From assembly GCF_001908275.1 (NCBI RefSeq), contig NZ_CP018620.1, positions 5,952,001 through 6,016,000 of the forward strand: 64,000 bases of DNA, in the 5' to 3' direction. The notes below the pieces were generated by a model. It was not told the origin of the DNA, did not search any database, and worked only from the letters and a program-made list of their open reading frames with translations. A program made the translations under genes and the position numbers. This DNA is from Paenibacillus xylanexedens (GTDB taxonomy: Bacteria > Bacillota > Bacilli > Paenibacillales > Paenibacillaceae). Below, piece after piece: positions 33,681-56,166 of the stretch (positions are counted from its first letter, which is position 1; each line of letters starts with the position of its first letter).

Positions 33681-33743
33681 AGTGTACATACCCATCATTC
33701 AACTTATATAGCTTCACCCCCACATTCTAAGGAGGAACACAAC

Positions 33744-37444: not shown

Positions 37445-37541
37445 TAAGTATGTTTATTGTTAAATTTTTCTTTTTATGAAACTATTTAATTTGTAAGTGC
37501 AGCATATTACTAAGTTATCAAAAAAAGCGGGTGGGACTTTC

Positions 37542-38114
37542 ATGAAATGGTATGTTTTATTTGTTAAAAATGGTGAGGAAGACTATGTGAAACTTCAAAT
37601 TCAAAATTATATAGGAACAATAGGATGCAATTGTTGCATTCCGAAAAGAATGGTACCGGAAAAGAAAAATGGTAAGGTCAATCATGTTGTAAAAAAAATG
37701 TTTCCTGGCTACGTTTTTATACAAACAAAGATGGACTTCTGCAAATACAACAAACTCAAGAAAATACCTCACATAATTGCATTCCTCAATTATTGTAATA
37801 AAAAGGATATTATATTTGATGCCGCTGTTGAAAATGAAGATGCATTTTTCAAGTCCATCACAGATAATGAAATGAAATTGCTCTTAGAACTATTAAATCC
37901 TCAAAATGATACTATGGAATATTCGAAATTTTGCTTGGATCAAGGGAATCTGAATATTGTATCTGGGCCATTAATTGGAAAGGAGGACCGCATAAGGAAA
38001 ATCGATAAGCGGAAGCAACGAGCAAAAATCACAATTAATATTATGGGTAAAGAGAAATATGTTGATATTGGTTTCGAAGCATCGGATACTAGGCTAGATG
38101 ATTTGCTAAGTTAA
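37542..38114 (+). CDS. loaP: LoaP, NusG-family transcription antitermination factor
   Basis: A 190-residue NusG paralogue that binds elongating RNA polymerase and lets it read through terminators in long biosynthetic operons. The N-terminal NGN domain opens MKWYVLFVKNGEEDYVKLQI and contains PKRMVPEKKNGK and MFPGYVFIQT, the typical LoaP wording. The C-terminal KOW domain is visible as LNIVSGPLIGKEDRIRKIDKRKQRAKI. It lacks the length and sequence of housekeeping NusG. The ATG at 37542 follows GGGTGGG. In Bacillus velezensis LoaP supports difficidin and macrolactin operons; here it probably serves the adjacent NRPS/PKS operon on the opposite strand, acting in trans, and perhaps the 38803 gene behind its 690-base leader. 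Confidence 0.9.
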   Translation: MKWYVLFVKNGEEDYVKLQIQNYIGTIGCNCCIPKRMVPEKKNGKVNHVVKKMFPGYVFIQTKMDFCKYNKLKKIPHIIAFLNYCNKKDIIFDAAVENEDAFFKSITDNEMKLLLELLNPQNDTMEYSKFCLDQGNLNIVSGPLIGKEDRIRKIDKRKQRAKITINIMGKEKYVDIGFEASDTRLDDLLS

Positions 38115-38802: not shown

Positions 38803-39795
38803 ATGAATTCTAAAGTACTTCCTATTTCCAATCCTAAAGTTTTTGGTTTTTTACACCATGCTTATCCATTATCTATTATCGGGAATTATAATGATTATCT
38901 TCCATGGTTTCATAATAATTTTATTCAACTAGTATGTAACACTGAATATTTTGAGTTTAAAAATGATCATTTTATCGATTTTTATTTTCCTAATGATCGT
39001 TTATTTAGTTACCCCTGTTTGGAGGCCTTTGCCTCTAAACCAGAATTTCTAAATAGCGATATTAATATTATTGATTATGTTATCAATAGTATTAATAAAG
39101 ATTGTTATGTTTATACACATGTTGACGAATTCTATATCTCTGAAAGAAATTCACATAACCACTTTACCCATAATATTTTTATATATGGATATGAAAATGA
39201 GAAATTTAACATTTTAGGATTCGATCAAAATCAAAACTTCGCTAAAACTCAGGTAACTTTTGAAGAATTTGGTGAAGCATACCTTAATGCTGATTATAAA
39301 CTTACGATTTTGTACTGCTATAACAATTATGTTAAGCCACAAACTAATATCCAGAGTATAGTTAGATCCATAAATGATTACCTATTATCTATAAACACCA
39401 ATCAAGGAAATGGTTTTTTGCCACCTAACCCTGTATTTGGAATCAGAACATATGAGTATATCAAGAAATATATCGAAATGATTAAATTAAGTTCTCATCA
39501 AGCAGATATACGTCCCTTCCATATTTTATTAGAACATAAGTCGTGTATGGTTGAGAGAATAGTATATTTGAAAGAAAAGAAATATCTAAGAGACCCTAGT
39601 ATTTATTCCGAATATCAGGAAATAGAAAACTTAGCTAAAGTTCAAAGGAATATTATACTGAAGTATATCCTAACTGGTGATTCCAATCTTTTATCAAATT
39701 TATTGTCCTCCATAGACTTACTAGTAATTAAAGAAACTAATGCTCTGAATAAGATTCTCTATGAGATAAGACTATCAGGGTTACTGTTATATTAA
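38803..39795 (+). CDS. Stand-alone BtrH-like acyltransferase-fold protein
   Basis: A 330-residue protein. Visible positions: FGFLHHAYPLSI at 14-25, YVYTHVDEFYIS (Asp108) at 102-113, HFTHNIFIYGY (His120, His123, Tyr128) at 120-130, VTFEEFGEAY at 151-160, and a helical C-terminal half with EHKSCMVERI at 244-253. The VDxF/Y..H..H..(V/I)YGY order is that of BtrH N-terminal/papain-like proteins; BtrH transfers an acyl group from a carrier protein to an amine in butirosin synthesis. It matches the tail of the last NRPS over its whole length (see the NRPS at 41701-45879) but has HHAYPL where the tail has a Cys. It lies on the + strand after loaP with its own leader. Biochemistry is inferred. Confidence 0.6.
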   Translation: MNSKVLPISNPKVFGFLHHAYPLSIIGNYNDYLPWFHNNFIQLVCNTEYFEFKNDHFIDFYFPNDRLFSYPCLEAFASKPEFLNSDINIIDYVINSINKDCYVYTHVDEFYISERNSHNHFTHNIFIYGYENEKFNILGFDQNQNFAKTQVTFEEFGEAYLNADYKLTILYCYNNYVKPQTNIQSIVRSINDYLLSINTNQGNGFLPPNPVFGIRTYEYIKKYIEMIKLSSHQADIRPFHILLEHKSCMVERIVYLKEKKYLRDPSIYSEYQEIENLAKVQRNIILKYILTGDSNLLSNLLSSIDLLVIKETNALNKILYEIRLSGLLLY

Positions 39796-39889
39796 TCCAC
39801 AAGCTAAAAAATCGCATATAGATAAGTTATTACAATGTATAATTTTTCTACACCTATACAAAGATAATTCTATCTATGAAATAGAAGAA

Positions 39890-39929
39890 ATAAAAAAAGT
39901 CCTCGTTGAAACTTTTCAACGAGGACTTT
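39890..39929. terminator. Strong bidirectional terminator closing the biosynthetic operon
   Basis: AAAGTCCTCGTTGAAA (39896-39911) and TTTCAACGAGGACTTT (39914-39929) are perfect 16-base arms with a 2-base gap. The A7 run on its left gives U7 in leftward RNA, so it ends the NRPS/GNAT operon, and it also faces the 38803 gene. Confidence 0.92.
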
Positions 39930-39932
39930 ACC

Positions 39933-39989
39933 AATCCGACCCGGAAGATCTTAATGTTGCTCTATCTTCTTGATCATTCGGGTCAGATT
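39933..39989. repeat. Second inverted repeat beside the terminator
   Basis: AATCCGACCCGGAAGATC (39933-39950) and GATCATTCGGGTCAGATT (39972-39989) pair with four mismatches around a 21-base loop. It could be a second transcription barrier or a binding site. Confidence 0.45.
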
Positions 39990-40018
39990 TGTATCAATCA
40001 AAACTTGAAAGGAATTAC

Positions 40019-40441
40019 TTAGATTGTTTTTTGCAGATAATAACGTTTATGTCCAGGTGGGCAGTCATTTTGGACTCCAAAAACCTCGTATCCAAGTTTG
40101 ATGTAAAAGTCTTTAGCTTGAAAATCAAATGTATCAACATGAATTAGCTTTATTCCAAACTCTTTTGCGCTAAGCTCAATACTGTTTAACAAATCCGTAC
40201 CGAGCCCATTATTTCTATAATCGGAATTTACCCAAAGGGCATCGATGAGTAAACAATGCCAAGCATAGTATACACAATTTATCCCTGCAATAATTTCCCC
40301 GTTCTCGTTCTTAATATTCTTATTTATTTTTGAGAAAGGTATAGGTGCAGTAAATGGTACATTTGATGCATTAAATTCTACGATTCTCTCTTCAATAAAA
40401 TTAGCGTCCTCCATGTTACTCTCCACAATATTATAATTCAT
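40019..40441 (-). CDS. GNAT-family N-acetyltransferase, last gene of the operon
   Basis: A 140-residue acetyl-CoA-dependent acetyltransferase. The pattern is clear: an opening MNYNIVESNMEDANFIEE, VYYAWHCLLIDALWVNSDYR (the family beta-4 strand), NNGLGTDLL (acetyl-CoA loop, Q/RxxGxG/A-type) and a C-terminal FYIKLGYEVFG. The ATG at 40441 has GAGGAG 11 bases ahead; 40462 is an alternative ATG. As the distal gene of an NRPS operon it could acetylate and inactivate the product inside the cell, in the way EdeQ protects edeine producers, or be an unrelated passenger. The gap to the acyl-CoA dehydrogenase gene is 130 bases, larger than elsewhere in the operon. Confidence 0.85.
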   Translation of the reverse strand: MNYNIVESNMEDANFIEERIVEFNASNVPFTAPIPFSKINKNIKNENGEIIAGINCVYYAWHCLLIDALWVNSDYRNNGLGTDLLNSIELSAKEFGIKLIHVDTFDFQAKDFYIKLGYEVFGVQNDCPPGHKRYYLQKTI

Positions 40442-40571
40442 AGTTTTATTTTCTCCTCTCATAATAAAGAAAGTCATGATTAATAATCAATTTGATTAAC
40501 ATTTTTTTTAAGTTCCACTAAATGTTTTTAGAATCTTCTTAAAAAAACTATTTGATGATAGTATTCCTCGG

Positions 40572-41699
40572 TTAATGACCATACACTTGAATGGCAAATT
40601 TCGAGGCACTCTGTTGTTGAATCTGCGATGTGCCTTCAATTACCTCTAATACTTTCGCTTCCCGAAAGAGTCTTTCAATGGAATATTCATTGTAAAACCC
40701 ATTGCCACCATGAATTTGTAAAGCATCACTTGATACTGTTACTGCCACTTTTGATGCAAAGTATTTGGCCATTCCCGTCATTTCTATAGCTGTCCAATCA
40801 TTATTTTGACGAAGCCCTCCAACACTCTTACAAAATGCTCGTGCAGCATTTATTTCAGTTATAGCATCACCTATCATCTTCTGAATCAACTGATGATTAA
40901 TAATTGGAGTACTAAATTGAGTTCTTGAACATGCATAACGTACCATTTGTTCTAAACATTCTTGTGCGATCGCAACACCTCCCCATGCAACACTATAGCG
41001 TCCTTGATCTAGAGCAGAATTTACTACAAAAGAAAATCCACCTCCTTCCGGACCAATTAAATTTTCTTTAGGTATCAGAACTTGGTCAAACGTTATTTCA
41101 GCTATATGAGTCGCCCGACCAGCTAATAATCCTTTAATAGGTGATGTCGTGACCCCCTCTGTTTCCTTATCAATTATAAAAGCCGATACTTTACCTGCAT
41201 TTTGTGCAATTACAATAAAGAAATTTGCAATATCCCCAAATGATATCCATTTTTTCTTGCCAGTGATTTTATATCCTTTTCCACAATTCTCGTATGTTGT
41301 CTTAACTTGAGAAGCATCACTTCCAATCTCAGGCTCAGTCAGTGCAAAGGCTCCGATACCTTTACCCGTTATAATTTGCGTCAGCCATTTGTTTTGCTGC
41401 TCCTCGGAACCATATTTCGCCAATGTCTCGCCAACCAATGAAGTTTGGACAGTAAGAAGGGTTCTCATTGTACAACATGCCTTTCCTATTTCTTCAATGA
41501 ATAATCCATATTGTACAGGACTCATCGATTTTCCACCAAATTTTTCAGAAAAAGGCAATGATAAGTATCCTTTTTGAGCGAACATAGTGACTAACTCTAG
41601 AGAGATGGCTTCTTTCTCATCCATTTGTTTGGCTATCGGTCTTATATGGCATTCCGAAAACTCCTTAGCCTCGTCTAGAAATATAGATGTGAATGTCAT
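40572..41699 (-). CDS. Acyl-CoA dehydrogenase-like flavoprotein of the biosynthetic operon
   Basis: A 375-residue FAD enzyme. Visible: FALTEPEIGSDASQ (the signature near residue 118), WISFGDIANFFIVIAQ, RTQFSTPIINHQLIQKM, LQIHGGNGFYNEYSIER, and the catalytic Glu in VIEGTSQIQQ near 360. In NRPS/PKS clusters such enzymes desaturate or oxidise acyl groups on carrier proteins, or make hydroxy- or aminomalonyl extender units (as with ZmaE-type and FkbI-type enzymes). Partner genes for the extender route (a dedicated ACP and 3-hydroxyacyl dehydrogenase) are not visible here. It starts one base after the stop of the NRPS gene, so it is translationally coupled. Which carrier-bound intermediate it uses is unknown. 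Confidence 0.88.
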   Translation of the reverse strand: MTFTSIFLDEAKEFSECHIRPIAKQMDEKEAISLELVTMFAQKGYLSLPFSEKFGGKSMSPVQYGLFIEEIGKACCTMRTLLTVQTSLVGETLAKYGSEEQQNKWLTQIITGKGIGAFALTEPEIGSDASQVKTTYENCGKGYKITGKKKWISFGDIANFFIVIAQNAGKVSAFIIDKETEGVTTSPIKGLLAGRATHIAEITFDQVLIPKENLIGPEGGGFSFVVNSALDQGRYSVAWGGVAIAQECLEQMVRYACSRTQFSTPIINHQLIQKMIGDAITEINAARAFCKSVGGLRQNNDWTAIEMTGMAKYFASKVAVTVSSDALQIHGGNGFYNEYSIERLFREAKVLEVIEGTSQIQQQSASKFAIQVYGH

Positions 41700-41700
41700 A

Positions 41701-44700
41701 TTAGTTTATCTCCCTAGTTTTTATTGGTATTCCCTCATACCATTCATGAAGGTAATCCATTTCAAATTGAAGGATGTTCGCAAAAGTCTCGCTCAAGGTT
41801 TCTTTTTGTCTCTCGGTTATTCTGCCGCTATAAATTAGTTTTACAACATTATTGCGTACTTCTGTCCATAATTCAGCCAATCGTTCTATTAGCATACAGG
41901 AATGTTTGCCAAAGATAATCTCATCACGAACTCTCTCCAAATGTTTCGTATTCATTTGGCGGGTAAGTTGATCAATTACTTCTTCAGCATGATCCAACAG
42001 ACACTGGAAATCACATAATAATGTAGATTCAAAGAAATAAATATACGAGTTTAAGTCCTCAATTCCTTGGTCTGCCAATTGCCTGTTGCACTGTAAATGC
42101 TTTTGGAGCTGCTCCCCTCTATCTGTTATTTTCGATTCGTGTTGTATTGTAGGGTCCATGAAATCACAGAATTCATAATATAAAGGTCCATCATAATGAT
42201 CCCCAAATTGATTTTTAAAACCATTGTAGCAATTCTTTAAATCTTCATACGAAATCATTTGCGGAGCATAATTAAGACTAAATTGATTCAAATGCTCAAT
42301 AATATAAAAAACTCTCAAATCAGCATTGTATCCATACACTAGCCACGTATGCGGTAAATGAACTTTTTGATAAGTTTCTTGTCGAATTGACTCATGATAG
42401 CAATCAACCCATATAATAACTGGCTTTTTCTGTTTCAACGATCTTATAATTTCATCTATAATGTCTTCAGTATACTTTTTGGTTACCATCGAAATATTTT
42501 GCTGACTCAGCAACTCTTCTAGCGACTGCATAGGGAGATAGTTATTTATATCTGCAAAAAATGGATCCTCCTTGTCCCATTTGAAAACAATCCAATCATT
42601 AGAAAGAAAAGTTTCAACATTATTACGATAAAGCTCTATCAATGGAAATAACGAATTATAAAAACAGCTTTTATAAAACACCTTATTGTATGGCTCTATA
42701 TTTTCAATGATGACAGAACTCTCATCCTTCTCCTCCATGATTTCCACTATCGGCCAATCACCCTCATCTGCGTTCTCTCTACTTGATGTTATATGTTGAT
42801 TATCAACAGCGAAGGACGCGAGCCTACTTATTGTTTTGAACTTATTTAAGTCGGTTACTTTTAGTGGTAAACCAAGTTGCTCCATTTCATATTCAAATCT
42901 AAGAGCCGTAATAGAATGCCCTCCAATATCAAAGAAAGATTGATCAACATCAATCAATGTAACATCCAATAGCTTCGACCAGACTTCAGCTATTGCTTTC
43001 TCCATTTCTGTCCTTGGCAGATTCACAATATTTAGTTCATATTGTTCTGCAAGAGTAGATAAAGCTCTTCTGTTTAATTTACCATTTGGAGTAAGCGGTA
43101 ACTCTTTTGACCTGATAAATTTAGAAGGAATCATATATTCAGGGAGCTTATTGCCAAGAAATAATCTTATCTCATCAATATTTAACTCCTGGTTTGTAAC
43201 AAAAAAGGAGCGAACGTATTTACTTCCATCCATATTTGTAAAAATATCAACAGCAGCTTGCTCTATTCCACTAACACCAAGCAATGCACTTTCGATCTCT
43301 TCTAGCTCTATTCGATATCCGCGAATTTTAACTTGGTTGTCCATTCTTCCGATAAATTCAATATCACCATTCTGCAATAGCTTCGCCATATCCCCTGTGC
43401 GATATAGCCGTTGATTAAGTGACTTGACATACGGAAATTGCTCTTTCGTAAGATCTTCTTTGTTGAAATAACCTCTAGCTAACCCATCGCCACCTATACA
43501 TAATTCGCCAATTAAACCTGACGGAAGTATCTTCATGTCTCTGTCTGTAATATAGATCTGAGTATTTGCAATCGGCACTCCAATAATATTGGATCGCGTT
43601 TCACCTTTAATTTCCTTAAGTGCAGACCAGATTGTCGTTTCTGTTGGTCCATACAAATTCAGCAACTTAGGGTTCGTCAGATCATACAACTCATTTAGCG
43701 TATTGTTGTGAAGTACCTCACCACCAATAAGTAAATAGTCTAACTTGTTCAAATAACTCTTTGCCTCTGGCCCGAGGAGGAGAAGTTCCAACCGGGAAGG
43801 TGTCATTTGAACCATAGAAATATCATAACGCTCCATCAGTTGAAAAATGGACTTAGGGTTCACGACTTCTTGTTTACGCCCAATCACGACCCTCATCCCA
43901 TGAGTCAAGGGCACAATAAGCTCCAAAAAAGAAATATCAAACGATATCGTAGTCAGTGCCAATATGGATTGACCTACTCGAAACTCAATAGACTGGCTTA
44001 TTGCTTGAATAAAATTATGAGCTGCCCGATGCTCTATCATTACACCTTTAGGCTCCCCGGTAGATCCAGAGGTATATATTAGATAAGCTAAGTCATCCGC
44101 TTTGCAACTGTTTATTACAGGCTTAGTGATAAGTGCTTCATGCCCAATCGAAGAAACATCTATGCAAATGATTGATTGTGCTCCTATTGACAGGTCTAGA
44201 TGTGTCGAATCTGTAACAAGAATCTCAACTTGACTATGTCTTAACATATATTCTCTACGTTCTGTAGGAAATTCTGGATCAATAGGCAAATAAGCAGCGC
44301 CTGATTTAAGAATTCCCAATAAGGCGACGAGCATATCTATGGAACGTTCAATGCATAATCCTACAACTGAGTTTGGTTTAACACCTAAATTATTCAATAT
44401 ATGGGCTAATTTATCAGCTTTATCATTTAGTTCTTTATAAGAAATCTTTTCGTTACCACAAATAATTGCTGTAGCATCAGGCGTACGCTTAACTTGTTCT
44501 TCAATTAATTGATGAATAGTCATATCTTTATTGTATTCTAGGTTTTTATTGTTAAGTTTTAAGATTTCAGGACTTTCTTCTAAAGTAATCATTGAAATTT
44601 GATCTAAAGCTATTAACGGATTATTAATAATATTATCGACAATTCGAATAAAATGAGTGTATAGCTCTTCTACCATCCTCTTTTCATAAACATTCGAATT

Positions 44701-45879
44701 ATACTTGAATTGTAAACGCATTACCTCATCCATAGAAATAACTACTGAGAAGTTGTAGGTGAACTGCTCGAAGTAATCCTCACCTTTGACAGAGAAATCC
44801 TCACCATAAATATTCAACTGGTCTTCCATAGGATAATTTTCAAATACAACAATGTGGTGGATTAGTTGATCCTTCAAATCGGAACAAGATTGAATCTCAT
44901 ACAAAGGACAAGACTGAAAAGGTACCGAGTTAATTGCATCAACATGGACTGTCTTAATCCAATTAGAAAAGGAAGAATTATTTTGGATATTAATTCTAGT
45001 CGGTATTGTATTGATAAACAGATCTACCGTATTTTCAATATTATTCAAATGAGCTGGACGTCCAGAAACGACGGTACCGAATACAACATCATTTGAATAA
45101 TTATATTTCCCTAGTAAAATTCCCCATAACCCTTGGAACATTGAATAGAAAGTAACACCGCACTTTCTAGCCAGTTCCTTCATTTCATCCAAACGTTTCC
45201 CATCTAAAACAAATTCAATTTCTTCACCCTCATACTTAACCTGTTTTGCATTAGTATGGGCCGGCAAAGAGAGATTGGTTTCGTACCCTGTTAAGTATTC
45301 TTTCCAGAATAGTTTAGCCTTGTCCCAATCTTGCTGCTGTATCCAATCAATATAATCTAATTTTGAGGACATTTCAGAACCACACTGACTTGGATCCACT
45401 CCATCATCATAGTAAAATTTCATAAAGTCTTTGATCAAAATTCCGATACACCAACCGTCCATAATAATATGATGCCACGTCCATACGAATTTAAAATGCC
45501 CCTCCGATAGCTCAACTACTGACATTCGAATTAATGGATCCTTCATTACATTGAACCCTCTAGTAATATCCTCGGACAAATAAACCTGGTAACTTGCGTA
45601 ATCCAGGTTCAACCAAGAAAAATCAGCATTGCGAGACTTCAATACAACCTGTAGTGGATCACCAAGTCTATCATGTATAATGACCGTTCGTAATGCCTCA
45701 TGCTTGGCTATCAATAACTCAAAGCTTTTCTTTAATACATTTTGATTCACTCTGCCATGTACATTCTGCGTAATTTGTAAAATATAGGCCTTAGGATTTT
45801 TTTGTACTAAAGAATCATACAGTATACCTTTTTGCATTGGAGTCAACGGATAGATGTTATCTATTTCTACTCTACTCAT
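41701..45879 (-). CDS. Terminal NRPS: C-A(Gly)-PCP with BtrH-like C-terminal domain
   Basis: 1392 residues. C domain 1-430 (HHIIMDG at 136-142); A domain about 455-950 (YTSGSTGEPKG, NLYGPTETTIW, YRTGD, NGKLNR); PCP about 965-1040 (FFDIGGHSITALR). By manual alignment the pocket reads D-I-L-Q-I-G-L-I-W-K, close to the glycine code. There is no thioesterase. Residues ~1068-1392 instead form a separate domain with FYKSCFYNSL (Cys1072), IIWVDCYHES (Asp1159), HLPHTWLVYGY (His1174, His1177), MISYEDL and GKHSCMLIERL, matching the 38803 protein throughout. The BtrH-like fold suggests release by acyl transfer to an amine or water. AAGGAG precedes the ATG. Confidence 0.88.
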   Translation of the reverse strand: MSRVEIDNIYPLTPMQKGILYDSLVQKNPKAYILQITQNVHGRVNQNVLKKSFELLIAKHEALRTVIIHDRLGDPLQVVLKSRNADFSWLNLDYASYQVYLSEDITRGFNVMKDPLIRMSVVELSEGHFKFVWTWHHIIMDGWCIGILIKDFMKFYYDDGVDPSQCGSEMSSKLDYIDWIQQQDWDKAKLFWKEYLTGYETNLSLPAHTNAKQVKYEGEEIEFVLDGKRLDEMKELARKCGVTFYSMFQGLWGILLGKYNYSNDVVFGTVVSGRPAHLNNIENTVDLFINTIPTRINIQNNSSFSNWIKTVHVDAINSVPFQSCPLYEIQSCSDLKDQLIHHIVVFENYPMEDQLNIYGEDFSVKGEDYFEQFTYNFSVVISMDEVMRLQFKYNSNVYEKRMVEELYTHFIRIVDNIINNPLIALDQISMITLEESPEILKLNNKNLEYNKDMTIHQLIEEQVKRTPDATAIICGNEKISYKELNDKADKLAHILNNLGVKPNSVVGLCIERSIDMLVALLGILKSGAAYLPIDPEFPTERREYMLRHSQVEILVTDSTHLDLSIGAQSIICIDVSSIGHEALITKPVINSCKADDLAYLIYTSGSTGEPKGVMIEHRAAHNFIQAISQSIEFRVGQSILALTTISFDISFLELIVPLTHGMRVVIGRKQEVVNPKSIFQLMERYDISMVQMTPSRLELLLLGPEAKSYLNKLDYLLIGGEVLHNNTLNELYDLTNPKLLNLYGPTETTIWSALKEIKGETRSNIIGVPIANTQIYITDRDMKILPSGLIGELCIGGDGLARGYFNKEDLTKEQFPYVKSLNQRLYRTGDMAKLLQNGDIEFIGRMDNQVKIRGYRIELEEIESALLGVSGIEQAAVDIFTNMDGSKYVRSFFVTNQELNIDEIRLFLGNKLPEYMIPSKFIRSKELPLTPNGKLNRRALSTLAEQYELNIVNLPRTEMEKAIAEVWSKLLDVTLIDVDQSFFDIGGHSITALRFEYEMEQLGLPLKVTDLNKFKTISRLASFAVDNQHITSSRENADEGDWPIVEIMEEKDESSVIIENIEPYNKVFYKSCFYNSLFPLIELYRNNVETFLSNDWIVFKWDKEDPFFADINNYLPMQSLEELLSQQNISMVTKKYTEDIIDEIIRSLKQKKPVIIWVDCYHESIRQETYQKVHLPHTWLVYGYNADLRVFYIIEHLNQFSLNYAPQMISYEDLKNCYNGFKNQFGDHYDGPLYYEFCDFMDPTIQHESKITDRGEQLQKHLQCNRQLADQGIEDLNSYIYFFESTLLCDFQCLLDHAEEVIDQLTRQMNTKHLERVRDEIIFGKHSCMLIERLAELWTEVRNNVVKLIYSGRITERQKETLSETFANILQFEMDYLHEWYEGIPIKTREIN

Positions 45880-45929: not shown

Positions 45930-48900
45930 TTAATTTATGTTCTCTAAATATTGCTGAATTGCACTTAATCGATCATTTGTCAATTGTTTGTATGCAAAAT
46001 CAGATAAAGTTTTCTCCTGTTTAGCCCTTCCCTTACAAAAATGCATTATTTTAATAATTTGCTCCTTGTAATCTCGTGTAAAGCTTTCTATAGCCCCTAT
46101 ATCCAATTGTTGACTGTCGTACGTAAAGGTGACTCTCAACTTTTCCTCTACTATTAAAGAATTAATTTCTAACACATATTTACTTGTTATATCTGGATGC
46201 GTTGGCTTGCCCGCATTAATATCGGATAAACTAAAGATACTTCCTTCGATACTACTATCGAATTCCCCGAGATAGTTAAACAAGATATCCGATTTCAAAT
46301 CCAAAGATCTATCTATAATACTCGGTGATTGCAAGTAACGAAGTACTCCAAATCCAAGTCCCCCATTAGGAATATTACGTACTTGTTCTTTCGTTTGTTT
46401 AATAATTCCAGTTAGATCCTGAGCAGAAACTTTCAAATGAAATGGAAATATTGAAGTGAACCATCCTATCGTCTTGGTTAATGAAATTCCTGAATCAGTT
46501 ACTTCTCGTCCGTGCCCCTCCAAATCGATTACAAATTCAGTATCTCCCGTAAAATTATGGAGCGCTATGCCCAATGCTGTTATCAAAATTTCATGTACTC
46601 GGGTATTAAAAGCATGATGAATTTCCTTCACCAAGACACGCGTCTCCTCGACAGTGAACAAAACCTCCACTTCCGTTTCAACTGGTTTAAACTTTGATGT
46701 TCCATTAGCCCTTTCAAAAATAGGCTGAGTACAATCTTTTATAAATTTCCAATATCCCCTTTGAGCCTGCAAAGTGTCGCTCTCTGAGAGCTCGTATAAA
46801 TAATTTGACCATTCATGATAAGAAGTTGTAGGCCTTCTTACGGATAGACTGCCATTCTTAAGGCTACGAAGTTCTATATCCAACTCCTCTAATAATATTC
46901 GCCACGAGACACCATCAACAATTAAGTGATGAATTACAATAAGAAGATGATCACCATGGTTAGCCTTTGCAATTAATATCTTGATTAATGGCCCCTGCTG
47001 AATATTAATTTTTGAATGAAGCTTATCTGCTTCGCATTCCAGCTGTGTCCTATAATCTTGAACACCTCGATAATCAATAACTTCTAGGTCAAAATACTTG
47101 CCACTACGCTCGTTTATATAGGGGACGATTACATTATTACATATGTTAAACGTCATTCTTAAGCTGTCGTGTCTGTCTGTAATTGACTTAAAAATCTTCT
47201 CAACCACCTCCGCATCAAACCTTTGATCGCTAAAAAGCATTACTCCTTGATTATAGTGATTGACAAACTCATGTGGATATTCAAATAGCCAGTGTTGAAT
47301 TGGTGTTAATTGAGTTTCACCCGTAAACACTTTGTGCAACACTTGATCATTACAATTGTCGATGAATGGGATGAGATCGGCCAAAATCGGATATTTGAGA
47401 ATATGTTCGACTTCAACGTTCATCCCTTGCGAATGCAGTCGTGAGGCAATTTGTATAGCCTTAATAGAATCTCCGCCTAATTCATAAAAGCTATCATCTA
47501 AACTTAGCTCATCTACTTTTAGAACACTTTGCCAAACATCACTTACAACTCGCTCATTAATCTCAGAGGCTCTTCTGATTTCTCTAGGCATTGACAAAGC
47601 TGATAGAGGATCCGGCAACTGATTCTTATCTACCTTCCCGTTAATCGTGATTGGCATGATGGGTATTGATATAAGATAGGTTGGAATCATATGGGCCGGT
47701 AACTTATCATCAAAAAATTGTCTGAGTTCTTTATTAGGCACAATCGGCTGAGAAACGTAATATAAACAGAGTTTTTGCTGGTCATCATCCTGAATGAGTT
47801 TAGTGAAAACATCTGTGACAAACGGACAATGTAATGCAGTCTGCTCAATTTCTCCGATTTCAATTCGATGTCCACGGATTTTCACCTGCTGATCTTTTCT
47901 CCCGATATATACGAGTTCAGTGTTTCGATTCCACTTAACCAAGTCCCCTGTTCTGTAGCACTTATCTCCCGACTTATAGGGATGCGGAATAAAACGCTCA
48001 TCAGTCAAAGCTTGGTTGTTCTTGTATCCGCGAGCCAAACATTCACCGCTTACATAAAGTTCTCCAATAGCCCCGATTGGAATCCTTTTCATGTTATCAT
48101 CTAAAACCAATAATGAGTGATGATTTAGTGGAACGCCGATATTGCTTACCCCTAATTCAATATCAGCTTCGTCAATTTCCTTGTAAGTCGTATGCACCGT
48201 TGTTTCCGTAATTCCATACATGTTTACGAGCTTTACTATTGGATACTTACTTTTCCACTTTCTGAGTATTCCTGGGTTCAATTTCTCTCCTCCAAAAATA
48301 ATGGTGTGCAGGTATAATCCTGTATCCTGTCGCTCCATCTCCTCCTCAGAAATCATATTGAAAGAGGTCGGCGTTTGATTAAGTATTGTTACCTTCTCTC
48401 TCCTAAGCAAGTTCAACAAATCTCTCGGATTCCTTGCTGTCATTTTCGATACAATAATAAGCTTGCCGCCATACAAGAGTGCCCCGTACATTTCCCATAC
48501 TGAGAAATCAAAACAAAATGAATGACAGCAAGACCATACTTCCATTGGCCCAAAATTAAACTTACCATTCGCTAATAAAAGTTGAATGACATTTTTATGC
48601 TCGACCATAACCCCTTTCGGCTGGCCAGTTGTTCCTGATGTGAAAATCATATAAGCTAGGTCATTATCTCTATTGACGGGAACCAGGTTTCCTCTCACAA
48701 CATTCCAATTCATTTCACTCAACACTATCAAGCCAATATCCCAGTCTAATGGTTGATCAGCTATCATTAGACTGGCGCCGCTCTCCTGAAGCATGTATGA
48801 CAAACGTTCTTGGGGATATTCAGCGTCTAGGGGCAAATATGCCCCTCCCGCCTTAAGTACTCCCAATATGGCTACAATCATATCTATAGAACGTTCAAGC

Positions 48901-49865
48901 ATTAGACCCACAATTGTTCCTTCTTTAACCCCTCGATCTCGAAGATGATGGGCCAGAATATTAGCTCTATTGTTTAATTCTTGATAACTTAACTCTTCTT
49001 GTTCCGATACAACTGCTGTTCTATTGGCGTATAACCGAGCTATTTCCTCAAATCTCGTATGAATTAATGTCTTCCCTCTACCAAGCCATTCATCACGAGA
49101 TGCCCAATGCTGTTGATTTTTCATACCATCTGCAGTCAACAGCTCCAATTCATTCAATTGGAGCTCCGAGCTATTACCGAATAATTGAAGTGCATACATC
49201 CAATGCTGAAAGACCTGCTCGATGCTTTCCCTTGCATACAACGCCGCATCATACACAAAATCTATTTGGATATTTGTCTCCCTATGTCTAATATGAATCA
49301 TGCAATCGTGCTGCAAATTCTGGCCATACTCTTGATGATGGAGTCCATCCATTCTTATAGAAGTATGGATACCCCCCTGAACTTCGTTCGTTACATGAAT
49401 CTTTTGCATATAATCAACAACTGGAAAGTTATGGTTCGAATCAGCCTGTAATACATTGGATTTAACAAGATTAAGCCATTCTTTTACTGTCAGCGAAGAA
49501 TGTATGTCCGAGCGAACTAATAACATGTCATTAATTCTCTTATTAGGAGAATCTAAACCAAACACAGGTACACCAACAATGACTGTATCCGTATATCTAT
49601 ACTTACAAAGCATCCATTTCAACGCTGCCAACAAATAAATGAAAAATCCGATGTCAGAATTATTCACTTTTTCCCTCAGACAAACCAGCAATTCCTGAGG
49701 CATATCAAAACTCAATGTTTCCATGTTAGGGTTCATATGGGATGAGAAATCAGGGGGAAATGCGCTCACATGCTGCCCGACTAATTGCGTTTCCCAAAAT
49801 CTCTTTTCACTAGCGAGGCTGGGATCGTTAATCATGATTTGACTAGTGATAGAATTATACTTCAC
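45930..49865 (-). CDS. NRPS: truncated C-A(Thr)-PCP-E
   Basis: 1311 residues from a GTG at 49865, eight bases after AGGAGG; a GTG at 49874 overlaps that site and is less likely. Residues 1-235 are only the C-terminal half of a condensation domain (FWETQLVGQ onwards, no HHxxxDG). The A domain (about 250-755) has IFTSGTTGQPKG, FDFSVWEMYG and NMYGITETTVH, giving the pocket D-F-W-N-I-G-M-V-H-K, the known threonine code. The PCP (about 775-845) has DSFYELGGDSIKA, the GGDS variant that precedes E domains. The rest is an epimerisation domain: HHLIVDGVSWRIL, EGHGRE, TIGWFTSIFPFHL, FNYLGEFD. Expected product unit: D-allo-threonine. Confidence 0.9.
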   Translation of the reverse strand: MKYNSITSQIMINDPSLASEKRFWETQLVGQHVSAFPPDFSSHMNPNMETLSFDMPQELLVCLREKVNNSDIGFFIYLLAALKWMLCKYRYTDTVIVGVPVFGLDSPNKRINDMLLVRSDIHSSLTVKEWLNLVKSNVLQADSNHNFPVVDYMQKIHVTNEVQGGIHTSIRMDGLHHQEYGQNLQHDCMIHIRHRETNIQIDFVYDAALYARESIEQVFQHWMYALQLFGNSSELQLNELELLTADGMKNQQHWASRDEWLGRGKTLIHTRFEEIARLYANRTAVVSEQEELSYQELNNRANILAHHLRDRGVKEGTIVGLMLERSIDMIVAILGVLKAGGAYLPLDAEYPQERLSYMLQESGASLMIADQPLDWDIGLIVLSEMNWNVVRGNLVPVNRDNDLAYMIFTSGTTGQPKGVMVEHKNVIQLLLANGKFNFGPMEVWSCCHSFCFDFSVWEMYGALLYGGKLIIVSKMTARNPRDLLNLLRREKVTILNQTPTSFNMISEEEMERQDTGLYLHTIIFGGEKLNPGILRKWKSKYPIVKLVNMYGITETTVHTTYKEIDEADIELGVSNIGVPLNHHSLLVLDDNMKRIPIGAIGELYVSGECLARGYKNNQALTDERFIPHPYKSGDKCYRTGDLVKWNRNTELVYIGRKDQQVKIRGHRIEIGEIEQTALHCPFVTDVFTKLIQDDDQQKLCLYYVSQPIVPNKELRQFFDDKLPAHMIPTYLISIPIMPITINGKVDKNQLPDPLSALSMPREIRRASEINERVVSDVWQSVLKVDELSLDDSFYELGGDSIKAIQIASRLHSQGMNVEVEHILKYPILADLIPFIDNCNDQVLHKVFTGETQLTPIQHWLFEYPHEFVNHYNQGVMLFSDQRFDAEVVEKIFKSITDRHDSLRMTFNICNNVIVPYINERSGKYFDLEVIDYRGVQDYRTQLECEADKLHSKINIQQGPLIKILIAKANHGDHLLIVIHHLIVDGVSWRILLEELDIELRSLKNGSLSVRRPTTSYHEWSNYLYELSESDTLQAQRGYWKFIKDCTQPIFERANGTSKFKPVETEVEVLFTVEETRVLVKEIHHAFNTRVHEILITALGIALHNFTGDTEFVIDLEGHGREVTDSGISLTKTIGWFTSIFPFHLKVSAQDLTGIIKQTKEQVRNIPNGGLGFGVLRYLQSPSIIDRSLDLKSDILFNYLGEFDSSIEGSIFSLSDINAGKPTHPDITSKYVLEINSLIVEEKLRVTFTYDSQQLDIGAIESFTRDYKEQIIKIMHFCKGRAKQEKTLSDFAYKQLTNDRLSAIQQYLENIN

Positions 49866-49889
49866 CTGAAGCACCTCCTAAACAAATAA

Positions 49890-52800
49890 TTAAAACTGAA
49901 GATCAAACTTAGCAAGACTTGATTCTGTTATTTTATTTTTCATGGAATGCAAGGAAAGAGTAGAAAGTAAATTTTCCGGTTCCGTCACTATGTCTTCCAT
50001 GATTGAGAGGAAATCCTCTGCAAAACGCTCAATTGTGGCCTCCTGAAAAAGCTGAGTTCGGTATTCAAAGACGCATGACCAGTCTTCTATATCAGGTACA
50101 ATTTCCAAAGTAAGTTCAAATTTAGAGTATTTCGATTTAACTTCATATGGAACAAACGAAATACCCGGAGCATTTTTTTCCTGAACATCTATATTTTGCA
50201 TTACTAAGGCAACATCAAAGAGAGGATTTTTACCATACTTTTTTTTCGGATTAGCTAGCTCTACGATTTGATCAAATGGGATATCCTGATTATCAAAAAC
50301 TTCCATACAAACTTTACGAACATTTTTTATGAAATCACGAATTGTCAAACTTCTGTCTAGCTGTATACGGATCGGCATTGTATTAACAAAGAGGCCCACT
50401 ACATTCTCCAAATCCAAATGACCTCTTCCGGCAATTGGTGAGCCAATGACAATGTCTTGGCGGCCCGAGTATTTGCTCAAGAAAATGCTGAAAGCTGCCA
50501 TACATATCATGTAAGGTGTGCACTCCAATGCATTGGCCATCTCAAGAACTTTATTTTTGATCACAGCATCCATTTCAAACAAATAGCTAGCACCGGAGTA
50601 ATTTATGTGTGGCGTTCGCGAATAGTCAGTTACTAACTCAACGTCATCAGAATAATCGGATAAGGATTTCAACCAAAAATCCTCTTGTTTTTTGACATCT
50701 TCATTCTTTAAAAATTTATTTTGCCACTCGCTGAAATCGCGATACTGAAGAGTTACCTCAGGTAAGGAATCTCCATTATATATGCGTATAAACTCACTAG
50801 TTAGAATTTTTAAAGAAACTCGATCTGAAATAATATGGTGCATATCGTAAAGCAATAGTCCATGGTTCCCGTTACCTACAATAAGACGAACTCTGAATAA
50901 AGAAGCATCGTATAAGTTAAAAGGTCTACAGAACGCTTCTAACTGCTCCTCAATTATCGTTTCTGAGAATTCGAGAGATTTGATTTGAATATGTTCAACT
51001 TCAAAATCAACATCCTCATGAATTCTTTGAAACACTTGTCCATCTTGGATGAAGAAGGATGTTCTTAACGCTTCGTGCCTTTCTATAAGCACTTTAAACG
51101 CATGCTTAATACGTTTCTGGTCATATGCACCCTGAATCATAATTACACCAGGTAAATGATAAGCATTACCTAAATCGCTGCTTTGTTCTAGAGCAAATAA
51201 ACGTGTTTGCGCAGTCGAAGTTTTATAATAACTTTTTCGCTGTACAGGAAAAATACTATGAAATTTAATGTCATTTAAGTTTTCAATATACTTAGCTAAG
51301 CTTCTAATCGTTGGATACTTAAAAATATCTTTCAAAGAAATCTCTACTTGCATTTTCTTCTGAATTCTATGCATCACATATGTTGCTTTAAGTGAGTGCC
51401 CGCCCAACTCAAAAAAATGATCATTAATTGATATATATTCCAAATTAAGAACATCTTTCCATATCTCAATTAACTTAGATTCAATTTCGCTTATAGGTTC
51501 TTCAATTTGTCTAAAAACTACCTCTTCACTTAGGTCCATGTCAGATAGCAATCGTTTATCTGCTTTCCCACTTTTGGTAAGAGGCATTTCCTTTATCGCG
51601 TAATATTTACTAGGGATCATATAATGTGGTATTCTGCCTGTTAAAAATGATCTGATTTCCCTTGCTTCAAGTATCGTATCCGCGAGATAGTAAGCTATCA
51701 ACTCGTGAATTTGATCTCCACTCTTTTTCGATACGACAGCAACCATATTTATTTTTTCATGTGCTAGAATATGATGCTCGACTTCACTGAGCTCAACGCG
51801 ATAGCCACGTATTTTCACTTGCGTATCTGCCCTACCAATATATTCTACATTTCCATCAGGCAGCCATCTAGCCAAATCACCTGTCTTATAGAGCCGGTCA
51901 TTATAGCCTAGTGGATGTGAAATAAAAATACCTTGATTCAGTTCTCTATTCACATATCCATCTGCAAGACCGACCCCAGAAATATAAAGCTCCCCACTAA
52001 CTCCTATAGGCACAAACTGCATCTGATCATCCAAGATATAAAAGTACATATTCTGCACTGGCTTCCCAATCGGCACTTTTAGTGTATCTTTATCCATAGG
52101 AATTACATAGTGTGCAGTATCATCAGAGCATTCGCTCTGACCATATGCATTAACCAATAGCGTACTATGCATTGAATAATAACGATTGACCAGATCTGCC
52201 GTAACTTTTTCACCTGTTAAAAGAAGAAACCTTATTGTTTGCAAATCAACAGGTAAATTCTCAAACGAGATAATCCGTAAATAACTATATAGTGACGACG
52301 GTGTCATTTCTATGATAGTTACATTATCAACAGACATCTGTTGTAACCATGTATAAGGATCCATTGTCATCTCTTCGCTACAGACTCGCACTGCTGCACC
52401 GACTAAAAGAGGAGCAATTCCCTGCCATATCGAAGCCACAAATTGAACATTTAAATTATAAGAAACAATATCATCAGCCTGTATACTTAATAGTTTGATT
52501 TTACTATAAGCATGATTTAACACTCCGAGTTGAGAAATGAGAACGCCTTTAGGAACACCGGTCGATCCTGATGTGTGAATAATAAACGCGGTATTCTCCA
52601 GCGGCACGACACTTCGGCTGTTCGTCAACTTACGAATGACAACCTCATCATTTTCAATGCAGAGAATAATTCTGATGCTGCATGCTGCATATATTTGGCT
52701 GTTAACTTTAGATTGATCTTCCGGATCTACCGGAACGCATACTCCTCCAAGTTTTAAGATAGCAATCACGGCAGTAAGAGAATGAACGGAACGCGACATT

Positions 52801-55800
52801 GCCAGCCCCACAGCTTCTCCTAAAGTAACTTCATATTTGCTCAGATCCCCAGCTAATTTGTTGACTGCATTGCTGAACTTATCATATGTCCAAACAAAAT
52901 CATCCGTTATAACTGCCGGACGATCGGCAAACTCAACTACGGAATTGTTAAAAATTTCATATATCCCTTTTTGAGGTAATTGTTCCGCTTCCCCAGCAAC
53001 CTCCATCAGCCACTTTTCTTCCGATGGGGGCAAAATAGAAATTTGTTTAATTTGAATTTGCTGATTGCCTGCTACGCTGTCAAGCACACGACCATAGTGT
53101 AATACCCAACGCTGGATGGTAGACTTATGGAATAAACTTGTCGCAAACTCTACTTGAAATTTTAATCTACCATTTTGCTCAATCGCATTGAAAACCAAAT
53201 CGAACTTGCTTGTTCTACTCAATATTGGATGCTGAGACACTTTTAATTCCCCGTCCATTGGAATGGACTCTAAATCCATATTATGGAGAATAAACATGGT
53301 GTCAAATAGTGGATTCCTGCTGAAATCCCGCTGAGACGGAAGCATCTCAATGATATCCTCGAAAGGAAACTCCTGATGCTGAAAAGCTTCTGCCACCGTT
53401 TGTTTAGTTGATCGAAGTAATTCAACAAAAGACATATGAGGATCAATTTCATTCCTTAATACTACAGTATTTACAAACATACCCACAAGCGGTTTGGCCT
53501 CTCGCCGTTTGCGGTTAGAAATTGCCGTCCCAACTGAAATATCTGTGTTACCAGTGTACTTATTTAATAACGTCAAAAAAGCAGATATCAACACCATGAA
53601 TAGTGTAGAATTTGTATTATCAGCCAATTCTTTTAGTTTGATTAAGGTATTTGGCTCAATATCGAATACCAGGCTATCACCTTGAAAACCTTGTACAGAC
53701 GGCCGCGGAAAATCAGTAGGTAAATTTAGAACTGGCAACTGACCATTCAATTTATTTTTCCAATAGTTGCGACTCGCTTCATATCTGGCATTGGTAGAAT
53801 CTATATTCTCGTTAATAGAGTAATTTTTAAAACTCACACTAATTCTAGGAGGTTCCATCTCATTATAAAAATAAAATAAATCTCTTTGAATGACACTTAT
53901 GGAACTTCCGTCGGAAATAATATGATGCATGTCAAACAGCAGAATATAAATTTCCCCCTCAAGTTTAAATAATGTAGCTTTGCATAATGGGGGATGACTC
54001 AAATCAAAGGATTGAATCTTTTGTTGAATCATATCATCTATTTCATTCTCGTTTGCTTTCACAATTTCTAGCTGAAGCTCTACATTAGAATGCACGATTT
54101 GCTTAATTTGCTCGTCAACCATGTGAAACGAAGTACGTAGCGTCTCATGGCGGGTGATTAGTTTTTGTAAAGAATCAAGTAATCGGCCTTGATCAACTTT
54201 GCCCTCTAGCCGAATTGCGAAAGGAACATTATAAGCAACGTTATCGCCTTCAAGCTGATTTAGCAAAAAAAGTCGCTTTTGTGCAGAAGTTACTGGAAAA
54301 CTTCTCTCTTCTTCCGTATTACGATTAATTTCGCCATTGTTGAGTTCACCTTCCATAGTTTCAATGTATGTTGCCATATCCTCAATCGTAGGTGACTGAA
54401 AAACCACATCCAGAGGATACTCGATTCCGAATTCTTCATAGATTCTCAATACCAATGACATGACTTTTAAAGAATGTCCTCCCAAAGATAAGAAACTATC
54501 TGTAACGCTCTTCTGATCCAGTTCGAGTACTTCGTTCCAAATATCCAACAACTTGCGCTCAATGCGATTCCTTGGCTCTACTATATCACTCTCTTTATGG
54601 ATTGAAGGCTCAGGCAGCGATTTATAATCAACTTTGCCACTCATTGTTAGGGTGATATATGGAACTTGAATGTAGTAGGTAGGCAACATATACTCGGGTA
54701 GATGCTGCTGTAGTCGTTGTTTAAGCTGAGCGTCTGTGTAGATCTCGTCTGATACCCAATAACATACCAAGTAAGGATCTTTTTCATCTTCCTTACGGTA
54801 ATCAACTACACAATCCGTAATGAACGGGATACCCAATACGCTAGACTCAATCTCTTGAAGTTCAATGCGATTCCCTCTTATTTTCACTTGACGATCCATT
54901 CTACCTAACAATTCTAAGTTTCCATCAGGCAACATCCTACCCAAGTCTCCAGTTTTATAGATTAAGTCATTAGGATTCTTTCCAAATGGATTAGGAATAA
55001 ACTTTTCTGCATTCAACTGCGGCTGTTTATAATAACCATGGCTTAAATAAGCAGTACGAATATAAACTTCCCCAACTTCCCCAGGGCGACAAACTTCCAT
55101 TGCATTATTCAGAATTATCGATCTGACCCCGGGCAGTGCCTTACCTGCTGGAATTCTTTCTTTTTTAGCATCATCCGGCTTTATGAAATAATAAAATTTT
55201 GCTAAAGATGTCTCGGTTGACCCATATAAGTTAATGAGCTGAATACGATTACCTAGACGCTCATACCACTTGATCAGCTCATTAGGGTTAATGGCCTCAC
55301 CAACCAATAAGACAAATTTCAAATCAGAGAAAGCGTTACCAATTGTTTGTTTGGAATTAACTATTTTAAATAAACTCGGAGTACAGTGTACAACGTCAAC
55401 CCTCGCATCTTCGATCCACTTTCTTATGCGGTTTGACTCTAGGATTGTCAGAGGATCCTCTGGAATACAAACGGTCCCCCCAACAAACAAAGGTACAAAT
55501 AAGTCTCTTAAAAAGGCGTCATTCCCCGGCTGAGTAAATTGGCTTCCTCGCACCATCGAGTTTAATTCAAGCCTGGAAATCTCCCAATTAATAAAATGAG
55601 CCACGCTACCATTTCTGCCTAAAACCGCCTTAGGTGTCCCAGTTGTCCCGGAAGTAAAATAAATGCTAATTTTATCATCAGGATCATAATCAAGTCTGAC
55701 GAGTGATTGAGGCGCATCAACATTTAGCAAATCTTTTTCAAAATGCAAGAAGAGATTTTCTCTGTTTTCACATAGAGCGAGATTGTTATTAAATCTTCTA

Positions 55801-56126
55801 TCACTTATCACAGTTTGTGTTTCAGAAATTTCCATGAATGTCCTTAAGCGGGACATTGGATAATAATAATCCAAAGGTACAAAGATAGCACGAATCTTTA
55901 GCACTGCAAGAAGTGCGATTATAAATTGAACTCGATTTTCAAGCAATATGCCTACTTTAGTCTGGCTTTCAATCCCCTTAGCTAACAGTGCATTCGCAAC
56001 TTTAGTAGTCTGGGCATCCAACTCTTCATAGGTTAGATAATGTTGCCCGTACTGGATTGCCTTATCGTTTTTTCCTGCGCTTTGAAAAACACGAGCTAAT
56101 GCATCTTGAATTGTATCATTTTGCAT
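49890..56126 (-). CDS. Bimodular NRPS: A-PCP-C-A-PCP-C
   Basis: 2078 residues from ATG 56126 (GGAGGG seven bases ahead; the frame is open to 56219, overlapping the previous gene). Order: A1 about 1-505 (YFTSGTTGTPKA, NLYGSTETSLA), PCP1 Ser552 (LGGHSLKVM), C1 about 610-1045 (HHIISDG at 734-740), A2 about 1065-1560 (IIHTSGSTGVPKG, AYGQSECSDD), PCP2 (FFELGGHSLKATY) and C2 to the end. A1 pocket reads D-A-R-H-L-G-L-L-A-K with the odd core NDAFLRDLF; A2 reads V-A-W-E-L-G-A-D-D-K, lacking the Asp that holds an alpha-amino group. C2 has HHIISDR instead of HHxxxDG. Neither specificity can be named; A2 may take a beta-amino or non-amino acid. It begins with A1, so it accepts the chain from the C domain of the PKS protein. 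Confidence 0.9.
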   Translation of the reverse strand: MQNDTIQDALARVFQSAGKNDKAIQYGQHYLTYEELDAQTTKVANALLAKGIESQTKVGILLENRVQFIIALLAVLKIRAIFVPLDYYYPMSRLRTFMEISETQTVISDRRFNNNLALCENRENLFLHFEKDLLNVDAPQSLVRLDYDPDDKISIYFTSGTTGTPKAVLGRNGSVAHFINWEISRLELNSMVRGSQFTQPGNDAFLRDLFVPLFVGGTVCIPEDPLTILESNRIRKWIEDARVDVVHCTPSLFKIVNSKQTIGNAFSDLKFVLLVGEAINPNELIKWYERLGNRIQLINLYGSTETSLAKFYYFIKPDDAKKERIPAGKALPGVRSIILNNAMEVCRPGEVGEVYIRTAYLSHGYYKQPQLNAEKFIPNPFGKNPNDLIYKTGDLGRMLPDGNLELLGRMDRQVKIRGNRIELQEIESSVLGIPFITDCVVDYRKEDEKDPYLVCYWVSDEIYTDAQLKQRLQQHLPEYMLPTYYIQVPYITLTMSGKVDYKSLPEPSIHKESDIVEPRNRIERKLLDIWNEVLELDQKSVTDSFLSLGGHSLKVMSLVLRIYEEFGIEYPLDVVFQSPTIEDMATYIETMEGELNNGEINRNTEEERSFPVTSAQKRLFLLNQLEGDNVAYNVPFAIRLEGKVDQGRLLDSLQKLITRHETLRTSFHMVDEQIKQIVHSNVELQLEIVKANENEIDDMIQQKIQSFDLSHPPLCKATLFKLEGEIYILLFDMHHIISDGSSISVIQRDLFYFYNEMEPPRISVSFKNYSINENIDSTNARYEASRNYWKNKLNGQLPVLNLPTDFPRPSVQGFQGDSLVFDIEPNTLIKLKELADNTNSTLFMVLISAFLTLLNKYTGNTDISVGTAISNRKRREAKPLVGMFVNTVVLRNEIDPHMSFVELLRSTKQTVAEAFQHQEFPFEDIIEMLPSQRDFSRNPLFDTMFILHNMDLESIPMDGELKVSQHPILSRTSKFDLVFNAIEQNGRLKFQVEFATSLFHKSTIQRWVLHYGRVLDSVAGNQQIQIKQISILPPSEEKWLMEVAGEAEQLPQKGIYEIFNNSVVEFADRPAVITDDFVWTYDKFSNAVNKLAGDLSKYEVTLGEAVGLAMSRSVHSLTAVIAILKLGGVCVPVDPEDQSKVNSQIYAACSIRIILCIENDEVVIRKLTNSRSVVPLENTAFIIHTSGSTGVPKGVLISQLGVLNHAYSKIKLLSIQADDIVSYNLNVQFVASIWQGIAPLLVGAAVRVCSEEMTMDPYTWLQQMSVDNVTIIEMTPSSLYSYLRIISFENLPVDLQTIRFLLLTGEKVTADLVNRYYSMHSTLLVNAYGQSECSDDTAHYVIPMDKDTLKVPIGKPVQNMYFYILDDQMQFVPIGVSGELYISGVGLADGYVNRELNQGIFISHPLGYNDRLYKTGDLARWLPDGNVEYIGRADTQVKIRGYRVELSEVEHHILAHEKINMVAVVSKKSGDQIHELIAYYLADTILEAREIRSFLTGRIPHYMIPSKYYAIKEMPLTKSGKADKRLLSDMDLSEEVVFRQIEEPISEIESKLIEIWKDVLNLEYISINDHFFELGGHSLKATYVMHRIQKKMQVEISLKDIFKYPTIRSLAKYIENLNDIKFHSIFPVQRKSYYKTSTAQTRLFALEQSSDLGNAYHLPGVIMIQGAYDQKRIKHAFKVLIERHEALRTSFFIQDGQVFQRIHEDVDFEVEHIQIKSLEFSETIIEEQLEAFCRPFNLYDASLFRVRLIVGNGNHGLLLYDMHHIISDRVSLKILTSEFIRIYNGDSLPEVTLQYRDFSEWQNKFLKNEDVKKQEDFWLKSLSDYSDDVELVTDYSRTPHINYSGASYLFEMDAVIKNKVLEMANALECTPYMICMAAFSIFLSKYSGRQDIVIGSPIAGRGHLDLENVVGLFVNTMPIRIQLDRSLTIRDFIKNVRKVCMEVFDNQDIPFDQIVELANPKKKYGKNPLFDVALVMQNIDVQEKNAPGISFVPYEVKSKYSKFELTLEIVPDIEDWSCVFEYRTQLFQEATIERFAEDFLSIMEDIVTEPENLLSTLSLHSMKNKITESSLAKFDLQF

Positions 56127-56166
56127 GATTGTTCCCTCCTCATATAGATTAGCAAGCAAGCCGTAC

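Follow-up and report, generated by a model that had tools for sequence, protein, structure and literature searches.

The last nonribosomal peptide synthetase (NRPS) of an assembly line in Paenibacillus xylanexedens carries, past its final carrier domain, a C-terminal domain that probably releases the finished chain onto an amine. The gene lies in the window, which is the 64,000-nt stretch analyzed here (NCBI RefSeq assembly GCF_001908275.1, contig NZ_CP018620.1, positions 5,952,001 to 6,016,000 of the forward strand). It encodes a protein of 1392 aa whose residues 1054-1392 (339 aa) we call the tail; a stand-alone protein of 330 aa, SA, is encoded close by. We give a probability of about 0.6 to the tail being an acyltransferase of the CcbD/CtaG/BtrH type that ends the chain by amine-dependent release. 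This is the best explanation because the tail combines the fold of these enzymes, their triad, and an Asp at the amine-site spacing with a position at the end of the assembly line; the reading draws on homology, predicted fold, residue conservation, location past the last carrier, and the lack of a thioesterase-family match in cis. Judged by its model, SA is related to the tail and would share its fold, yet it no longer has the Cys.

A first-pass annotation of this DNA had proposed that SA and the tail are homologues, and pairwise and profile-profile comparisons bear this out. Both open reading frames (ORFs) are open over their proposed extents (Table 1). BLASTP aligned the two over 291 columns with 21% identity (E = 8e-7), and their Smith-Waterman score of 93 was reached in none of 1000 shuffles (41.8 +/- 6.3). 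Families built from database matches, comprising 16 SA-type proteins (A1) and 15 tail-type pieces (A2, with P0024 excluded), were aligned by hhalign over 234 columns starting past the N-terminal Cys region (Prob 99.0, E 5.5e-18), while larger families of 36 SA rows and 54 tail rows aligned over 343 columns (Prob 99.0, E 3.6e-18). Four of the five motifs said to be shared are in register: VD-x-(F/Y)Y, HxxH with its second His five residues before YGY, the segment after it, and RN..(I/V)..K.I..G near the C-terminal end. The fifth, (H/K)SCM..ER, is not. The HKSCM of SA falls opposite HAEEV of the tail, whose own HSCM lies 29 residues downstream, and SCM is absent from the tail-family consensus, so that this likeness looks like chance. 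The tail keeps its Cys (Cys1072), and SA has none at the corresponding place; the facing residue is uncertain by ~3 positions (Leu17 if ungapped, Ala20 by motif), and none of L17-H18-H19-A20 is Cys. In the SA family, the column of H18 holds Cys in 2 of 36 rows.

AlphaFold2 (AF2) models of the two regions each align over their full length with the same three solved structures, namely, CcbD, CtaG, and a chain of AziU2-U3; against CtaG, Foldseek gave E 1.7e-7 with the tail model and 9.9e-8 with the SA model. The link to these three proteins is one of fold comparison alone, as Protein Data Bank (PDB) sequence searches with both family profiles and a free-standing tail returned only weak, unrelated matches. 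The tail model (predicted local distance difference test [pLDDT] score, 87.6) has the full-length fold of the CcbD/CtaG/BtrH papain-like enzymes, and the sequence contains a predicted Cys-His-Glu triad of Cys1072, His1177, and Glu1195. SA has the full-length fold and lacks the nucleophilic Cys; since the fold is present and the Cys is not, we do not file it as an amide synthase or otherwise as a CcbD/CtaG/BtrH-type enzyme. No hidden thioesterase fold emerged in the tail: PF00975 was not among the seven Pfam families matching at E <= 0.1 and did not match the tail, and the predicted fold is papain-like instead. PF14399 (BtrH_N) scored 26.8 bits against the tail in one search and 30.7 bits in another, around its curated cut-off of 29.7; Peptidase C39 (PF13529) scored 22.0 bits, below its cut-off of 24; and SA matched no Pfam or NCBIfam family, PF14399 included, at E <= 0.1. 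CcbD is described in PMC12945683 as an enzyme that forms amides in a carrier-dependent manner and has a Cys-His-Glu triad; its amine-site Asp114 precedes His131 by 17 residues. The candidate amine-binding Asp1159 of the tail precedes His1177 by 18, and as far as fold, residues, and position tell, the tail would work like CcbD.

Tails of this kind were found in further NRPSs and also in polyketide synthases (PKSs). At E <= 1e-3, a protein search with the tail region, whose length filter (0.55-1.75 x 1392 aa) excluded free-standing forms, matched 5 NRPSs and 11 PKSs, a total of 16 proteins when the window's own is counted. The motif could be placed in 15 of them. In 14 of these, the Cys lies 63-113 residues past the carrier Ser and the domain is the end of the protein; P0029 differs in having an aminotransferase between carrier and tail, and at L047 an E-like domain stands there. 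The last adenylation (A) domain has a Gly-like code in four of the five tail NRPSs (the window, P0021, P0028, and P0032) and differs in P0019. We take the window's own code, DILQLGLIW, to specify glycine, and the adjoining carrier and missing thioesterase match likewise agree with a tail standing in the thioesterase position after a Gly module. The tails of L045, L046, and L061 are preceded by another A code, DTESIGTVC; in these clusters, another BtrH-like protein that has the Cys, 347-355 aa long, is also encoded (L046:16248-17291, L045:5830-6897, and L061:13166-14233).

Of 75 genomes of the window's genus, 26 have a match to the A2 profile at E <= 1e-3, and 15 of those 26 have a strong one (at least 268 bits); 12 of the strong matches lie in ORFs of >1100 aa, and 3 are free-standing. 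Searches that scored at most five candidates per genome found matches at E <= 1e-25 in 11 of 398 genomes of the class and at E <= 1e-20 in 2 of 398 genomes of the phylum, the window's own included. A profile of free-standing and fused tails matched 24 proteins, among them proteins of Bacillus pumilus, B. cabrialesii, Brevibacillus antibioticus, Paludifilum halophilum, Paenibacillus odorifer, and Clostridium. Tails are present in several Firmicutes genera, mostly after a carrier at the end of an NRPS or PKS or as the next, overlapping gene. Free tails overlap the preceding KS-T or A-T ORF at L060, L048, G634, and G772; the overlaps are upper bounds, since ORF starts were taken as the first possible starts. 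At G634 and G772, further assembly-line genes lie downstream of the free tail, and one G634 free tail, read by eye, has a carrier-like domain at its own C terminus. On a FastTree tree, for which no support values are shown, the NRPS-fused, PKS-fused, and free forms require 15 label changes, while 500 label shuffles averaged 22.9 and never went below 17, indicating forms that are somewhat clustered yet have been interchanged many times. The G634:C1 region (~1305600-1323000; L141 and L142), a Brevibacillus cluster, holds two free tails and a PKS with a third BtrH-like region at its end, and the genes between the two tails include DHQS II and a DeoC-type aldolase. Such a pair occurs in 3-amino-4-hydroxybenzoate pathways, a hint of an aromatic amine but not evidence for one.

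If the tail acts in amine-dependent release, the peptidyl-Gly chain bound as a thioester to Ser989 of the neighboring carrier would pass to Cys1072, and the Cys-bound acyl group would then be transferred, with the help of His1177 and Glu1195, to an amine held by Asp1159, releasing the product as an amide. We infer both the ping-pong transfer and the amine nucleophile; the amine could be a free molecule, carrier bound, or an amine of the chain itself. The BtrH-type acyl-to-amine transfer put forward in the annotation is consistent with the fold, the triad, and the release position, which recurs in other NRPSs and PKSs; the polyamine or amino sugar suggested there would be a conjectural acceptor. 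The same position, triad, and covalent chemistry would also serve a release domain with water or a group of the chain as acceptor, that is, a papain-fold thioesterase or macrocyclase. Papain-like folds mostly hydrolyze, and the chain may carry beta-amino groups, as the KS-T-aminotransferase protein suggests. We nevertheless consider such an acceptor unlikely, given that the closest solved folds include amide-forming CcbD and that all 54 rows have an Asp spaced as in the amine site of CcbD. It seems quite unlikely that the tail performs other chemistry on the carrier-bound chain, as AziU2-U3 does, or acyl transfer from carrier to carrier, as proposed for CtaG, leaving release to a type II thioesterase or to a spontaneous reaction: the tail is C-terminal in fused NRPSs and PKSs alike, and no second cis release domain was seen in the window's line.

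SA could be a partner subunit in the window's cluster or a separate carrier-protein-associated factor. A Cys-less SA-type gene and a tail share a cluster in three lineages, represented by the window, the L042 group, and G552. The L042 group (L042, L044, and L067-L070) is one orthologous locus at which the SA-type and tail ORFs adjoin, with an 8-base overlap in five of six cases. Wherever the last A code was read in a line next to an SA-type gene (the window, L042, L044, and G003:C2), it is Gly-like. These observations speak against the view that SA has no functional tie to the tail and is one member of an extensive Paenibacillus family of proteins associated with carrier proteins, present here through cluster assembly, a view to which we give even odds. 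In its favor, SA-profile matches occur in 36 of the 75 genus genomes, with as many as 9 in one genome when tails and fragments are counted, and none of 20 further SA-type loci has a condensation-domain line within ~10 kb, compared with 1 of 20 in the control; at L089 and L102, among those 20, an A-domain ORF continues past the edge. SA-type genes adjoin lone carrier-protein genes outside NRPS clusters at L093:9476-10794 and L095:8778-10544, one of which also has ketosynthases and a FabA-type dehydratase. Moreover, the closest relative of SA with a readable neighborhood (G003:C2) sits in an NRPS cluster that ends in Gly-T, without a tail and without a thioesterase match. SA is thus not an obligate partner of the tail.

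The division of labor between the two copies that the annotation had envisaged is possible but weakly supported: the co-occurrence in three lineages favors it, and the 20 of 20 further loci without a condensation-domain line and the tail-less cluster of the closest readable relative count against it. A general role of SA as an assembly-line partner was dropped after the 20-locus neighborhood control. We think it quite unlikely that the Cys-less family consists of working carrier-dependent amide synthases that need no covalent intermediate. In such enzymes the invariant His would help the amine attack the carrier thioester directly, as in an NRPS condensation domain. At G003:C2 the SA relative would be a trans release factor of the Gly-T terminus, and where a Cys-bearing tail is also present (the window, the L042 group, and G552), the two would pair, the SA-type protein completing the acceptor pocket of the tail in the way that the partner monomer does in the CcbD dimer. 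Beyond the far end of the window's cluster lies another SA-type gene without the Cys (352 aa; L041:18255-19313).

A free-standing tail homologue of 326 aa in G212 (L072:9493-10473) lies between an AmiB-like peptidase and an AmiD-like thioesterase and, as assigned by gene order, occupies the amiC position of a Bacillus amicoumacin-type cluster. It was placed there because the gene set of G212 fits the amicoumacin table and text of PMC5055758: there are also an AmiA-like NRPS, 3HCDH, HAD, ACAD, an APH-type kinase, and alkaline phosphatase, and ORFs of 893 and 1501 aa compare with AmiJ (858 aa) and AmiK (1487 aa). The protein at the amiC position is a homologue of the window tail but is not fused. 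In that paper, AmiC is termed a hypothetical protein. Xenorhabdus bovienii makes amicoumacins without amiC, which speaks against an essential role of amiC in forming the amicoumacin backbone. The X. bovienii AmiL-M protein has 3419 aa; at this place G212 has two open frames, 2416 and 2141 aa long, and in addition a C-HAD-T end at which no thioesterase domain was seen. Two relatives, P0051 (B. cabrialesii) and P0052, have Asn in place of the catalytic His.

Table 1. Features of the window around SA and the NRPS tail
Feature	Coordinates	Strand	Evidence or remarks
LoaP-type antiterminator, upstream of SA	37497..38114	+	NCBIfam NF033641, 196.2 bits (cut-off 125)
SA, stand-alone Cys-less tail homologue, 330 aa	38803..39795	+	AF2 pLDDT 86.0, sequence comparison
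SA Ala20, HHAYPLSI motif	38860..38862	+	Ala 35, Gly 1 of 36 SA-family rows
SA His123	39169..39171	+	Kept in 36/36 SA-family rows
GNAT acetyltransferase, possible self-resistance	40019..40477	-	Pfam
Acyl-CoA dehydrogenase	40572..41699	-	Pfam; HAD and 3HCDH partners at L040
Last NRPS of line, C-A-T-tail, 1392 aa	41701..45879	-	Pfam, A code DILQLGLIW
CcbD/CtaG/BtrH-like C-terminal domain, residues 1054-1392	41704..42720	-	PF14399 score, AF2 model
Glu1195 codon, predicted third triad member	42295..42297	-	Glu 51, Asp 3 of 54 tail-family rows
His1177 codon, predicted catalytic His	42349..42351	-	His in 52/54 tail-family rows
Asp1159 codon, candidate amine-binding Asp	42403..42405	-	Asp in 54/54 tail-family rows
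Cys1072 codon, predicted nucleophile	42664..42666	-	Cys in 54/54 tail-family rows
Ser989 codon, carrier-domain Ser (GGHS), 83 residues ahead of Cys1072	42913..42915	-	
NRPS A(code DFWNIGMVH)-T-E-like	45930..49874	-	
NRPS with two A domains	49890..56219	-	
Luciferase-like monooxygenase	56167..57183	-	Pfam, NCBIfam
Asparagine-synthase-like amidotransferase	57243..59105	-	TIGR01536, 450.6 bits
KS-T-aminotransferase-C protein	59148..63992	-	Past window edge, 1730 aa (L040:1148-6340)

The window's line was extended beyond the edge with L040 and L041. Its first module (L041:4626-7712) has the A code DLTKVGEVG, presumably an Asn code, and adjoins a fusion of a beta-lactamase-type peptidase with an ABC transporter (L041:2-4051); we take DFWNIGMVH to be a Thr code. 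The line also includes a trans-acyltransferase, HAD, 3-hydroxyacyl-CoA dehydrogenase, acyl-CoA dehydrogenase, a type II thioesterase, and GNAT. The lone type II gene is the only PF00975 match of the cluster in its own genome. Acyltransferase, HAD, 3HCDH, and acyl-CoA dehydrogenase together are, we assume, a hydroxymalonyl-ACP set, of which the acyl-CoA dehydrogenase of the window is probably a part. As its genes indicate, the cluster has the layout of D-Asn prodrug antibiotics; amicoumacin, zwittermicin, and edeine are named beside paenilamicin for dual self-resistance of this type in passages of PMC9054821. The same genes occur at many other tail loci but not at every one: G772 has none of the set, and G634 has the acyltransferase only. 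Edeine ends in Gly-spermidine. So does paenilamicin, according to passages of PMC9054821. An identity with either cluster, considered because of these termini, was not adopted, as neither cluster was identified among the loci, and spermidine was for that reason not adopted as the acceptor. LoaP-type genes are found near tails also in L047 and G737, and an Rfam scan of the window gave nothing at gathering scores. Elsewhere in the window, two overlapping ORFs (29949-31169 and 31132-32457, minus strand), one SIR2-like (PF13289) and the other without a Pfam family, are possibly a defense pair, and a 535-aa ORF (33675-35282, plus strand) matches amidohydrolase families, with DUF554 near its C terminus.

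If the proposed function is right, assembly lines possess, in cis and perhaps also in trans, a release module that joins an amine to the C terminus as an amide via a Cys-His-Glu acyl-enzyme, and mining rules that expect a thioesterase, a reductase, or a terminal C domain would mispredict such products. It would also suggest, as a first idea that can be tested, what the unexplained amiC gene of amicoumacin clusters might do, and supply a swappable C-terminal domain for new amides. The donor and acceptor range of CcbD is broad, as described in PMC12945683, which suggests that such domains could be useful tools. Among the matches listed in the open-licence literature, as distinct from subscription papers, we found no report of this domain at the end of an NRPS or PKS.

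Several solved proteins share the fold of the tail and SA while differing from the tail in setting or chemistry. CcbD and LmbD, the lincosamide condensing enzymes (PDB 7yn1, 7yn2, 9dkr, and 9dks), are stand-alone and use an amino-sugar acceptor, unlike the fused tail, and identity in the structural alignments is 6-12%. The AziU2-AziU3 complex of azinomycin biosynthesis (PDB 7wuw and 8gs1) matches in fold but forms an aziridine rather than an amide. CtaG of closthioamide biosynthesis (PDB 9quz, 9qvl, and others), whose PDB titles name variants at C11, H128, and D144, has the full-length fold common to tail and SA and differs from the tail in being stand-alone with a carrier-bound acceptor; passages of PMC6772006 propose it to be a peptidyl transferase. 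BtrH of butirosin biosynthesis, described in passages of PMC10318531 as an acyl carrier protein:aminoglycoside acyltransferase, is likewise stand-alone. The annotation's idea of a new release domain therefore stands in modified form: the kind of enzyme is known from the stand-alone CcbD/LmbD, CtaG, and BtrH, and its C-terminal use in an assembly line seems, as far as our searches reached, to be a new architecture.
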